Shown here in pieces: positions 1,981 through 8,187 of a stretch of 10,035 nt of DNA (within the stretch, counting starts at the first letter, position 1; every line of letters begins with the position of its first letter). Origin of the DNA: Candidatus Apopatosoma intestinale. Its GTDB lineage: Bacteria > Bacillota > Clostridia > Oscillospirales > CAG-272. The stretch is taken from positions 1-10,035 of the forward strand of contig JAGHUY010000246.1 in the NCBI GenBank assembly GCA_018064545.1, read 5' to 3'. Under the pieces are notes generated by a model. The model had not been told where the DNA came from, made no database searches, and worked only from the letters and a program-made list of their open reading frames with translations. Both the position numbers and the translations under genes were made by a program.

Positions 1981-2495
1981 TTATAAGAACCGAACCATAT
2001 CCTCTATCGGTTTAGTCTTATCGTGCAAAGGATTCGGCATTACCCCGTCCTTAGGATAACCCATGACAAGCAATGCGGTGGATTCCAGATGATCCGGCAA
2101 TTCAAACTCCGTTTTTACAGCTTCGGGAATATAATGCATGACCCACGTAGAGCCAACCCCCAGATCGGCGGCTTCAAGCATCATGTGTGTGCAGACGATC
2201 GAAGCGTCAATATCTCCGGACGGTTTGCCGTCATACTCTCTTTTCCAACATTCATTCTTGTCAAAGCAGACCAGAATCGCCAAGGGGGCATGAAAATGAG
2301 ACCTTGTGCATTTTCTGAATTTCTCCAAAGCTTCTTCGGATTCAATCACAAAGATTCTCTGCGGCTGACGGTTGCAAGCCGTAGGGGCCACCTGACCGGC
2401 TCTCTCAGAATCTTTTCTATCACGTCTCTTTCAACTTTCCGATTTGCAAATTCTCTCACAGAAAACCGATTCTCTGCCAATTTCAAAAAATCCAT
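1981..2495 (-). pseudogene. Nitroreductase family protein, frameshifted near codon 31
   Basis: FMN-dependent NAD(P)H nitroreductase-like protein of the small (about 170 aa) clostridial type. The first 30 codons from ATG 2495 (minus strand GGAGG about 5 nt upstream) give MDFLKLAENRFSVREFANRK and end at EKIL, a classic nitroreductase N-terminus. The rest lies in another frame and resumes as AGQVAPTACNRQPQRI through to the TAA at 1981-1983, with VGSTWVMHY and LLVMGYPKDG later on. At the join the minus strand reads CTGAGAGAGCC. Removing one GA unit restores the frame and the usual KILxAG spacing, so the lesion looks like a 2-nt expansion of a GA repeat at about 2400-2407. A 1-nt loss that adds one residue is also possible. 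The shifted reading cannot make an intact protein. Either the gene is newly broken or the base calls are wrong. Confidence 0.85.
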
Positions 2496-2749: not shown

Positions 2750-2778
2750 ATTATAAAAGATTTGTGTGAATTTTTCAA
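2750..2778 (-). promoter_or_regulatory. Sigma-A promoter for the leftward remnant/nitroreductase/FAD transcript
   Basis: On the minus strand a -35 TTGAAA (2773-2778) and a perfect -10 TATAAT (2750-2755) are separated by exactly 17 nt. Transcription would start near 2743 and read left through the 55-codon remnant, the nitroreductase and the FAD protein. Confidence 0.8.
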
Positions 2779-2788
2779 CCGTGAGAGC

Positions 2789-2830
2789 AAAAAAAAGTCC
2801 TCGGCTTGCGGCTGATACAGGATGCCGAGG
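2789..2830 (-). terminator. Minus-strand intrinsic terminator bounding the hairpin array
   Basis: GCCGAGG and CCTCGGC arms (2824-2830 and 2799-2805) form a 7-bp stem with an 18-nt loop. On the minus strand this is followed by AC and eight T residues (A-run 2789-2796 on the plus strand). It would end anything transcribed leftward through the hairpin array, just before the next leftward promoter. The loop is long for a terminator. Confidence 0.6.
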
Positions 2831-2836
2831 AAACAT

Positions 2837-3007
2837 GTGATGTTTGCCCTGACGGGCAAGTGATGTTGTGCTGTCGCACGGTGATGCTTTGCGGCTCCGC
2901 CGCTAAGTGATGTGATGTGTTCCACCCACGCCCGCAGGCGCATCACTCGCCGTAGGCGAACATCACGCACGAAGTGCACATCACGTTCCGCTTGCGGAAC
3001 ACATCGA
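2837..3007. repeat. Palindromic array of seven small hairpins spaced by GTGATG (left half) and CATCAC (right half)
   Basis: Left half: GTGATG at 2837, 2860, 2881, 2907 and 2912 separates three GC-rich hairpins: TTGCCC/GGGCAA (2844-2859), GTGC/GCAC (2868-2879) and GCGGC/GCCGC (2891-2903). Right half: CATCAC at 2941, 2961 and 2979, and a degenerate CATCGA at 3002, separates four hairpins: CGCC/GGCG (2929-2940), TCGCC/GGCGA (2947-2959), GCAC/GTGC (2967-2977) and GTTCCG/CGGAAC (2985-3000). Because GTGATG and CATCAC are complementary, the halves can pair into one long arm with the hairpins as side branches. Hairpin sequences differ from one another while the spacers and layout are kept. No coding function is seen. 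Confidence 0.85.
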
Positions 3008-3009
3008 TC

Positions 3010-3049
3010 AAAAAAACGCCTTTTGTCCGGTAGACAAAAGACGTTTTTT
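3010..3049. terminator. Intrinsic terminator downstream of tRNA-Gln, usable on both strands
   Basis: A 12-bp near-perfect stem (3016-3027 with 3033-3044, loop CGGTA) has a T-run on each side: 3044-3049 on the plus strand, and the complement of the A-run 3010-3016 on the minus strand. It begins a few bases after the 3' end of the leftward tRNA gene and is its natural terminator. Confidence 0.9.
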
Positions 3050-3051
3050 GT

Positions 3052-3127
3052 TGGCTGCGGCACAAGGATTCGAACCTTGGTAATGACGGAGTCAGAGTCC
3101 GTTGCCTTACCGCTTGGCGATGCCGCA
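3052..3127 (-). tRNA. tRNA-Gln (anticodon CUG)
   Basis: The minus strand gives a full cloverleaf. The acceptor arms are TGCGGCA (3121-3127) and TGCCGCA (3056-3062), with a GCCAAGCGGTAAGGC D-arm typical of glutamine tRNAs. The anticodon stem ACGGA/TCCGT holds the loop CTCTGAC, which gives anticodon CUG, and the T-arm contains GGTTCGAATCC. A discriminator G and an encoded CCA follow (3052-3054). It decodes CAG. The gene stands alone with its own promoter and terminator, not in a tRNA cluster. Confidence 0.95.
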
Positions 3128-3162: not shown

Positions 3163-3191
3163 AGTATAGCAAAAGAAAATCGATTTGTCAA
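3163..3191 (-). promoter_or_regulatory. Consensus sigma-A promoter of tRNA-Gln
   Basis: On the minus strand a perfect -35 TTGACA (3186-3191) and -10 TATACT (3163-3168) are spaced by 17 nt. The start point would be near 3155, about 30 nt before the mature tRNA 5' end. This is a strong stable-RNA promoter placed back to back with the feoA leader. Confidence 0.9.
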
Positions 3192-6467: not shown

Positions 6468-6989
6468 ATGAAAAAAATCATTGCCATTCTTTTTTGCCTT
6501 CTTTTTGTTCTCATTCCCCTGACCTCCTGCGGGAAAAAGGAAAAACCGCCAACGGGAACAAAAAAAGTCGAGAGTGAATTTTTGGATTACAAATTGTACG
6601 TCCCGAAAGACTGGACAATAGACATTTCGACAGGATTTGCCGCCGCATCCGATTCCAAGGGACGCTCCGTCAGCGTGACCGAGGTGTCCCCGGAAGGTGA
6701 TTACGCCAGCATTGACGAGTATTACCGTAATTTTTACTGGAAAACCGTCCGCGATACGTTCGGAAACGTCGCTTTGACGGAATCCTATACCGAAAATCAG
6801 ACGCTTGGTGGCTACCCTGCCTGCCGTTACGTCCTGTCTTTTACGATTGGTGAGGAACAGTATACCGCCATGCAGGTCGTCGGCGTTCACGCTTACAATC
6901 TCTATATCTTCACGTATTTCTCCCCGGCCGACCTGTATGCGGACGGGCTGGAAACCGTAGAAGAACTGCTCGGATATTTTGCTTATTGA
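6468..6989 (+). CDS. Putative lipoprotein with a PsbP-like fold, 173 aa
   Basis: A secreted, membrane-anchored protein. It has a lysine start, a hydrophobic stretch (residues 4-18) and a clear lipobox LTSC with lipidated Cys21, followed by a charged linker rich in K, P and T. The mature part (YKLYVPKDWTIDISTGFAAA, then ESYTENQTLGGYPACRYVLS, then YIFTYFSPADLY) resembles, by recall, clostridial lipoproteins with a PsbP-like domain, in which a Y-x-x-Y-V-P-x-D/G-W opening is common. The function of these proteins is not known. The start is ATG 6468 with AGAGG just upstream. It is the first gene of a tight operon: the cysteine desulfurase ATG follows 16 nt after its stop. Its link to the cytoplasmic enzymes downstream is unclear. 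Confidence 0.82.
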   Translation: MKKIIAILFCLLFVLIPLTSCGKKEKPPTGTKKVESEFLDYKLYVPKDWTIDISTGFAAASDSKGRSVSVTEVSPEGDYASIDEYYRNFYWKTVRDTFGNVALTESYTENQTLGGYPACRYVLSFTIGEEQYTAMQVVGVHAYNLYIFTYFSPADLYADGLETVEELLGYFAY

Positions 6990-7005
6990 TTCTCGGAGGA
7001 TTCCT

Positions 7006-8187
7006 ATGATTTCCTATCTGGACAACGGCGCCACAACGCCGCTCTGTCAGCCGGCCTATGAAGCCATGAAACAAGTGGCGGAAAACACGTTCGGTAACCC
7101 CTCTTCTCTCCACACCCTCGGAATGGAAGCCGAATCCGTCGTGGAACAAGCCCGTCAGTCTGTCATGACCGCTTTTCAAAAACAGAAATTGGGAGATGCC
7201 CGTAAACCGGAGCAGATCGTTTTCACCTCAGGCGGCACAGAAGCCAACAATCTGGCACTTCTCGGCACCGCTCTTTCCAAAAGCCGCTTTGCCGGAAAAA
7301 CGATTCTCGTCGGAGAATCCGAGCACGCCTCCGTTTCCGCCTGTGCCGATCATTTGGAAGCTCTCGGTTTCCGTATCGTGCGGATTCCCTCGCCGAACGG
7401 CGTGTGGGATATGGACGCCTACCGTGCCGCGCTAAGCAAGAACGTGATTCTCGTTTCCGCCATGCTCGTCAATAACGAAACCGGGGCTCTTCATCAGGCG
7501 GAAGAGATCGTTCGCGTCGCTCATGAAGTCTCCCCGGACATCTTTGTTCATATAGACGCGGTACAGGCTTTCTGTAAATTCGTGCTTCCCCGCTGCCCCG
7601 GTGCCGATCTTGTTTCCGTTTCTTCGCACAAGATCGGAGGCCCTAAAGGGGTCGGCGCATAATACCTTTCTGAACGCGTTCTGAAAACCAAAAGTATCTC
7701 CCCCGTCCTTTTCGGCGGCGGGCAGGAAAACGCTCTTCGCTCCGGCACGGAAAACGTGATCGGGATTGCCGGTTTCGGTGCGGCGGCCGACTACTATATT
7801 TCTCACGTGGGCGAGCACAGCCGTCATTTTGCCGATTTGCGTACCTATCTGGAAGAACGGCTCAAAGAGCTTCCGGAAAACAGCGTTCGGATCAACGAAC
7901 CGGTTTCGCGTGTCGATTATATCGTCAGTCTGACGGTCTTCGGAATCCGGAGTGAGACCGTGCTTCACGCGCTGTCGGCTTCCGGTGTCTACGTTTCCGC
8001 CGGTTCCGCCTGTTCTTCCAACACGCATCACGCCAGTGCGGCGCTCGCCTCCTTCGGCCTGTCGGACGCAGATGCCGAATGTACCGTTCGCGTCAGTTTC
8101 GGCATTCAGAATACAAAAGAAGACATCGACGCTCTGATCGCCGGCCTTGCCGACGGCATTTCGCATCTGGCCAAAAAGCGTCGCTGA
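7006..8187 (+). pseudogene. Cysteine desulfurase (IscS/NifS family) interrupted by an in-frame TAA at codon 219
   Basis: PLP enzyme that takes sulfur from cysteine for Fe-S clusters or thiolated tRNA. The start is ATG 7006 with GGAGG at 6995-6999. Family features in order: YLDNGATTP at the N-terminus, GNPSSLHTLG, FTSGGTEANNLAL, His107 in ESEHASV, the PLP lysine K209 in SSHKIGGPKGVGA, then FGGGQENALRSGTEN, and the catalytic C336 in SAGSACSSNT. At 7660-7662 the reading GVGA is followed by TAA and then YL, where the family normally has GALY(L/V). A single change in a TTA leucine codon would explain it. The same frame continues intact to TGA at 8185-8187, giving 394 codons in all. A protein ended at 218 residues would keep the PLP lysine but lack the sulfur-carrying cysteine. 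Decay and base-call error are both possible. Confidence 0.9.

Follow-up and report, generated by a model that had tools for sequence, protein, structure and literature searches.

The window, by which we mean the whole stretch of 10,035 nucleotides of Candidatus Apopatosoma intestinale that was analysed, carries on its minus strand a tRNA-Gln(CTG) gene (3052-3127; ARAGORN, and Rfam RF00005 with 58.2 bits), the host gene ahead of the element described here, with a putative promoter upstream of it (TTGACA-17-TATACT, 3163-3191, minus strand, consensus scan). Between the tRNA CCA and the element lies a near-perfect palindromic terminator hairpin (3011-3049, minus strand; repeat and terminator pattern scans), with 17-nt arms that are 94% complementary and a core, TTTTGTC..GACAAAA, whose exact sequence occurs only here in the host draft genome (G000). 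On the far side, a second terminator was read from the sequence (2789-2832, minus strand), with arms of 8 bp at 2798-2805 and 2824-2831 and eight T on the minus strand; the pattern scan finds the first terminator only (3020-3040), the loop of the second exceeding the scan rule. Another putative promoter from the consensus scan (TTGAAA-17-TATAAT, 2750-2778, minus strand) stands ahead of a nitroreductase-like frame (1981-2494, minus strand), in which the open frame 2391-1981 takes in no more than the latter portion of the domain (profile 89-167) and the piece 2494-2395, read in one frame, contains five stops, owing to a frame break or an assembly error. The same two causes apply to a class-V aminotransferase split over 6979-7662 and 7756-8187 of the plus strand (profile 2-210 and 256-371).

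The core of the element (3006-2837, 170 nt, read on the minus strand as in all that follows) is a palindromic array of seven hairpins, placed between and beside copies of a spacer word that reads GTGATG in the first half and CATCAC in the second. In plus-strand letters, GTGATG starts at 2837, 2860, 2881, 2907 and 2912, the last two copies overlapping, and CATCAC at 2941, 2961 and 2979. The array opens with CGATG and the first hairpin (2985-3006; sequence, alignment and word scan), in which arm X (TGTTCCGC) is joined through AA to its local complement GCGGAAC. Hairpins A (2967-2978), B (2947-2960) and C (2929-2940) follow, each with GTGATG ahead of it (2979-2984, 2961-2966 and 2941-2946). The centre (GGAACACATCACATCAC) holds a second complement of arm X (GGAACACATC, 2914-2923), which the repeat scan found to be 100% complementary to 2996-3005, and the overlapping spacer words CATCACATCAC (2907-2917; GTGATGTGATG on the plus strand). 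Hairpins D (2887-2906), E (2866-2880) and F (TTGCCCGTCAGGGCAAA, 2843-2859) complete the core, with CATCAC after each (2881-2886, 2860-2865 and 2837-2842, the last being the array end); the spacer words were located by word scan, and hairpins A to F from the sequence and the alignment. The letters of hairpin F are identical in two other copies of the host genome, on contigs C58 (locus L021) and C206 (L022). Two short forms were also observed in this genome (L021 on C58 and L324 on C84), in which the first hairpin runs uninterrupted (GATGTGTTCC..GGAACACATC) and hairpins A to C are absent; they are either precise deletions or the state that predates the addition of A to C.

The original prediction of a palindromic multi-hairpin array, with GTGATG changing to CATCAC and a terminator on both sides, was borne out: a 172-nt stretch reached a palindromic-word score of 3, as did none of 1,000 dinucleotide shuffles, and the best score in the rest of the window, sampled once every 20 bases, was 2. 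Folding on either strand, which it had also proposed, was evident as well, since both strands of 2789-3049 folded as RNA far better than their shuffles (z = -5.3 for the plus and -7.5 for the minus strand); DNA folding of 2835-3005 gave z = -5.4.

The window core was aligned with 27 of 33 non-redundant relatives, leaving out six over-long or irregular ones (L034, L051, L073, L080, L095 and L133). Standard pairs filled 97.1% of the pair cells, compared with 18-54% paired in slid control alignments, and changes on both sides of a pair were found in 120 cells versus 40.0 (sd 4.9) in shuffled alignments. Two weaker measures pointed the same way, the number of pairs with a both-sided change (15 versus 12.4 shuffled; 6 of 500 shuffles as high) and the number of further pair types (39 versus 34.3; 5 of 500). 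All but one of the 15 pairs changed on both sides lie in the side hairpins, the spacer words are almost invariant within the GTGATG family, and hairpins D and E are absent from the predicted consensus structure. A further feature is constant between families: two complements exist for the 5' arm of the first hairpin, the local one and that at the centre, adjoining the reversed word. The array structure is thus conserved while its letters change, in agreement with the selection on structure that had been suspected; the number of hairpins, seven, was also right. One point of the original prediction needs correcting, in that the hairpins are not arbitrary: they have positional homologues in the relatives, with letters changed on both sides at a time.

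At the default Rfam cut-off the window yielded the tRNA alone, and a permissive search brought out Gut-1 (RF01706) on both halves of the array, at 2935-3009 on the minus strand (38.7 bits, E = 2.1e-06) and at 2835-2918 on the plus strand (29.4 bits, E = 0.00048), both below the gathering threshold of 50. Each half aligns with model positions 1-77 of 77, the right half needing a longer third hairpin, and the copy in the window follows Gut-1 in order and lengths, with three hairpins that alternate with a repeated word, which also opens and closes the series. It departs from Gut-1 in that its halves score below threshold, its word is GUGAUG, and two Gut-1-like halves stand head to head, with an intervening sequence protein gene in some copies (see below). 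Stronger matches were obtained from arrays with other words, namely the GATAT copy of the host genome on contig C161 (60.1 bits) and the TGAAAT array of L209, with two matches of 72.8 bits, above the cut-off. Gut-1 proved common across the order as sampled, with matches in 81 of 197 genomes, in 68 of them above the cut-off, and often with many matches in one genome, up to at least 22 with 22 candidates scored in each; across the phylum 2 of 199 genomes had a match, G000 being one of them, and among 14 control genomes there was one (Escherichia coli), below the cut-off. The 30 stored best Gut-1 loci included 27 with a triple-arm signature (away from the match in L300 and L315), 16 behind a tRNA, and two with the protein gene within 900 nt.

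In its treatment of Gut-1, Weinberg 2010 (PMC2864571) regards the motif as certainly an RNA, probably not cis-regulatory and found in the human gut only, and groups it with noncoding RNAs. In the literature searched, which lacks most subscription journals, this was the only work found to give the accession RF01706, and the works listed did not include one on the element as such; some of the present arrays may be among the 3161 candidate structured RNAs from human microbiomes that PMC8040213 presents. The left half of the array is a divergent Gut-1, so that half of the element lies within a described motif.

The copies expected in the host genome and in related Clostridia were found, compensatory changes included, and the window array is one member of a large family that has the same architecture with other spacer words in many genomes of the order. 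A search of 59 genomes (G000 and relatives) with the word pattern gave matches in 18, a part of these matches being coding noise; the real copies, compared by eye, came from three families of the order. A second pattern matched 20 of 295 genomes, likewise with noise among the matches. At least 116 stretches in named genomes carried the first-hairpin pattern, and the 80 matches listed were all Clostridia by name, many of rumen or gut origin. No match was found to the exact first-hairpin pattern among IMG/VR viral contigs, nor by blastn (E 1e-5) among phages and plasmids, and a phage or plasmid vehicle is therefore unsupported. Most hosts are draft assemblies of uncultured bacteria, taken as one genome per species, with copies often at contig ends.

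In the host genome, GTGATG copies lie behind tRNA-Gln(CTG) (the window copy), tRNA-Gln(TTG), tRNA-Ala, tRNA-Tyr and tRNA-Val, and a GATAT copy behind tRNA-Leu; no adjoining tRNA was found for the copies on contigs C364, C240, C183, C346 and C347. The copies nearest to that of the window have single hairpins in common with it. Those of class B, in several genomes (RUG and RGIG ones among them), have a near-identical left hairpin and, by eye, unrelated flanks, five such places being occupied in G062 alone; they are dispersed, near-identical copies at unrelated sites, as in MITE-like elements. The spacer words vary across families (by eye, AATGATG/CATCATT, AATGAAG/CTTCATT, TGAAAT/ATTTCA, TGAATTG/CAATTCA, GATAT/ATATC and others), yet the two halves change together and stay complementary. 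AT-rich arrays with TTCACTATTCATT-like words were observed behind terminators at L342, L351, L353, L354, L356, L358, L359, L207 and L205, and look like a sister class of the present elements. L132 has a pair of tRNA-Val genes, with some 1.1 kb from one to the other and two element cores behind each, and the copies are 94% alike over 580 nt. L127 and L173 are nearly identical (98.9% over 664 nt), which was dropped as evidence of movement because both lie behind what appears to be the same tRNA end.

A complete tRNA on the same strand was present within 130 nt upstream of 59 of 145 distinct copies, a set drawn with a loose pattern that admitted a few doubtful ones, and the nearest tRNAs end 32-47 nt before CGATG. 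Within 150 nt upstream of 125 copies, 57 had a tRNA on the same strand and none on the opposite strand. Three further copies (L056, L107 and L121) follow what we take, by eye, to be tmRNA 3' ends. In L010, L061, L086, L097, L119 and others, only the last 20 nt or so of an apparent tRNA precede the element, as at the far end of a tRNA-integrated island. Among 36 arrays of all words, 11 were behind a tRNA and 13 behind a strict terminator hairpin, a hairpin that was met at 3 of 600 random places; for arrays of many words, a place directly behind a tRNA or a terminator hairpin is commoner than chance would give. GAATTG or CGATAT arrays directly follow the hairpin formed by the last codons of a gene that we presume to be rlmD/rumA-like from its C-terminal motif (L195, L201, L202, L270 and L272). 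L092, L130 and L134 are enclosed by an inverted repeat that resembles a terminator, with one arm on each side, and in G062 an apparent first terminator arm precedes the five class-B copies, the far side of which is mostly past the contig end. Inverted repeats from flank to flank, compared over 87 GTGATG copies, numbered 7 versus 2 in mismatched pairs at a score of 12 or more and 12 versus 11 at a score of 10, which is suggestive for a few copies only.

Occupied and empty sites were sorted by eye, tRNA by tRNA. The joined flanks of the tRNA-Tyr copy of G077 matched in 39 of the 41 genomes of its genus, and the site was read in 24. It held GC-rich arrays of different words in L347, L350, L355, L360, L362 and L363 as well as the GTGATG element in G077, AT-rich arrays in L342, L351, L353, L354, L356, L358 and L359, and a plain terminator or another insert in others; one such small insert (L340, L348 and L361) has inverted and direct copies of the tRNA 3' end around a hairpin ACAGTCC..GGACTGT. 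Behind the tRNA-Gln of another genus, G300 has a GTGATG element, the element of G214 has a different word, and G223, G249 and G307 have no element; the site search gave no match in the sixth genome, G144. The tRNA-Cys sites, chosen by the tRNA pattern alone, had GC-rich arrays behind 6 of 29 genes (L209, L211, L214, L221, L225 and L226). One tRNA site can therefore be empty or hold different word families across species. No movement event was seen among these genomes, one per species, and no empty site that keeps both of its flanks came out of the joined-flank searches.

A strict scan detected a second copy of the terminator 3' arm at 6 of 43 hairpin sites, with none in 20 shuffles per site. 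These were L207, L342, L356 and L359, which make up four of the eight named AT-rich sites, together with L208 and L216; no duplication was found at the GC-rich arrays of the 43-site set or for the window copy. In L205, which carries the intervening sequence protein gene, the arm was seen by eye on both sides of the array. As for the terminators of the window, that at 2789-2832 is probably the original one of tRNA-Gln, displaced by the insertion, to judge from other copies without a gene, behind which terminators were made out by eye. The palindromic one (3011-3049) either arrived with the element or is part of the site; near-perfect terminators at empty tRNA-Cys sites favour the latter, whereas copies at different sites with one common left hairpin, in G077 and G062, oppose it.

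In some copies the last word is followed by a promoter-like stretch and a frame of about 119 amino acids that matches PF05635 (E = 3.2e-27) and TIGR02436, with one solved relative (2rld). PF05635 is the four-helix-bundle 23S rRNA intervening sequence protein (IVP). To measure the linkage from the side of the gene, 70 loci were taken, with genes picked only by PF05635; they contain the majority of the 92 matches to this profile from 59 genomes. A palindromic word array was present upstream of 36 of 72 IVP genes versus 0 of 30 control genes (one additional IVP gene was excluded, its upstream sequence being too short), the other half of the IVP genes having no detected array. Under a stricter length filter, the triple-arm signature was upstream of 36 of 70 IVP genes, compared with 0 of 350 shuffles and with 16 of 698 control genes, five elements of the same kind being among these 16. 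The array precedes the IVP promoter at a fairly constant spacing. Seen from the arrays, an IVP gene was within 1200 nt of 27 of 107 GTGATG copies, and the whole host draft (92% complete) had no PF05635 match. Among the 32 genomes listed in both searches, an IVP gene occurred in 14 of 17 with Gut-1 versus 4 of 15 without (p = 0.0036).

On a quick protein tree with several long branches, built from the 51 IVP proteins with a word class (39 without a class were left out), the spacer word changed 12 times versus 28.6 with shuffled labels, and none of 200 shuffles was as low. Several word classes occur within one host in G014, G013 and G028, indicating that the word goes with the element and not with the host. 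Array and IVP gene thus travel as a unit; the agreement between word and protein could come from DNA linkage alone, and the tree is no proof of binding. In L004, L011, L151, L155, L156 and L174 the promoter and ribosome-binding region are apparently kept and the next frame is, by eye, not obviously a four-helix-bundle gene; these frames are possibly cargo or captured host genes. The Gut-1 likeness, the four-helix-bundle gene in relatives, the frequent location at tRNA and terminator hairpins, and the single orientation of the tRNAs go beyond the original prediction.

The intervening sequences (IVS) of 23S rRNA, as discussed in PMC4990558, resemble the present family in the IVP protein family, in being called selfish, and in replacing a hairpin loop and having a terminal stem; a transposition origin, and an open frame that assists mobility, are presented there as unproven ideas, and the IVP is said to have no known function. 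The present family differs in lying outside rRNA, behind tRNA, tmRNA, rlmD-like or terminator hairpins, and in having a repeated-hairpin array. The window copy itself is behind tRNA-Gln and not in a 23S helix, and the host draft has no PF05635 frame. PF05635 is described as Avd-like, in connection with diversity-generating retroelements, in a passage of PMC10053308; unlike in such systems, several array-bearing genomes have no reverse transcriptase match. A figure legend in a paper on rare CRISPR-linked genes (PMC10910872) names the 23S rRNA IVP domain.

The array is not a CRISPR, as had been stated at the outset, since what would be its "spacers" can pair with themselves as hairpins, and the word is inverted halfway along. 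REP and BIME sequences, which go with RAYT transposases, also combine a short conserved word with hairpins and are dispersed outside genes, as the present family is, but the latter has no steady Y1 partner, forms mirror-symmetric arrays of 6-7 hairpins and is linked to an IVP, so its separation from a simple REP cluster holds too. No Y1 transposase match was found in the array-bearing G014, G028, G050, G038 and G058, and G000 has a single one, on another contig (C225); reverse transcriptase (RVT_1) gave 0 matches in G000, G014, G028 and G050 and none in G038 and G058, while both enzymes were present in the array-bearing G003, G007, G013 and G031. With five array-bearing genomes lacking either enzyme, a reverse transcriptase or Y1 as a general helper was set aside as unsupported, and, with four others having both, neither looks required.

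Taken together, we think it likely that the array in the window belongs, as a non-autonomous copy, to a dispersed family of selfish elements with nucleic-acid hairpins as their landing sites, and a non-autonomous mobile element, one of the options first raised, is thus the best reading of the data. The mobility of the family is deduced from the sequences, namely from dispersed similar copies, from tRNA sites occupied in some species and empty in others, and from arm duplications in some AT-rich relatives. The autonomous form would consist of a hairpin or terminator, a palindromic array of 6-7 short hairpins, a promoter and one IVP gene. The IVP would bind the folded array of its own element, as RNA or single-stranded DNA, and help to position the element 3' of a hairpin in the host; the joining itself might, at a guess, be done by host replication or repair enzymes, and to our knowledge no nuclease or recombinase activity has been attributed to IVP proteins. 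Some AT-rich relatives have the 3' arm of the hairpin used as target both before and after the array, as though insertion had duplicated it. Gene-less copies would move in trans and displace the old terminator of the tRNA; the window copy, between tRNA-Gln and its presumed old terminator, would need such help, as no IVP gene was found in G000. A terminator that stays in place ahead of the array would let the tRNA unit work on, which would make carriage cheap.

Other explanations were weighed against this one. The array could be a functional noncoding RNA with a regulatory or structural role, transcribed either by tRNA read-through or off the opposite strand, and a putative structured RNA made leftward in this manner is possible; the strong covariation and the fit of half of the element to the model of Gut-1, which Weinberg 2010 regards as certainly an RNA and places among noncoding RNAs, speak for this, but we regard it as unlikely in view of the many copies per genome (up to at least 22 matches), a mirror symmetry common to both strands, a link to one gene rather than to a regulated host function, and the coexistence of different words in one host. 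That the array is only an operator or attenuator, bound by the IVP encoded downstream for self-repression, would suit its position upstream of the IVP promoter at a fairly steady distance and a word that follows the IVP protein; the absence of an IVP gene from most copies (80 of 107 within 1200 nt, and 28 of 30 Gut-1 loci within 900 nt) and the dispersal of gene-less copies with their structure kept give this explanation a low probability.

We see only a slim chance that the array is a REP/BIME-like palindrome moved by a Y1 transposase or a passenger of a group IIC intron reverse transcriptase, since G014, G028, G050, G038 and G058 (drafts, 86-98% complete) have no match to either enzyme, G000 has none to reverse transcriptase, and the linked protein is an IVP and not a Y1; the likeness of word and hairpin to REP, the preference of group IIC introns for terminators, the one Y1 match in G000 and the occurrence of both enzymes in some array-bearing genomes are what this explanation has in its favour. 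The 3' ends of tRNA and rlmD genes are integrase sites, and apparent partial tRNA 3' ends before some copies, with rlmD-like 3' ends as a second site, would agree with relics of larger genomic islands whose attachment region includes the hairpins. But arrays are found at plain terminators too, have a conserved inner structure of their own and carry a gene in part of the copies, and such an origin seems very improbable.

Returning to a selfish family that settles at hairpins, a broader claim can be offered tentatively, with the odds, as we see them, leaning slightly against it: that this is a distinct kind of mobile element, in which the array is recognised by a four-helix-bundle protein that has no known catalytic activity and that inserts it at the hairpins of host RNA genes and terminators, with duplication of the 3' arm, Gut-1 being one half of the element and the 23S IVS its special case in rRNA. 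With the selfish-element reading, the orphan Gut-1, described from the human gut only, would acquire a range of hosts, a full-length form and a probable nature, and the 23S intervening sequence protein would gain a candidate partner, the array of its own element. The ideas of IVS as selfish and mobile set out in PMC4990558 find a non-ribosomal setting in this family. A gene-poor selfish element would then live beside essential tRNA genes, leaving their transcription unbroken.
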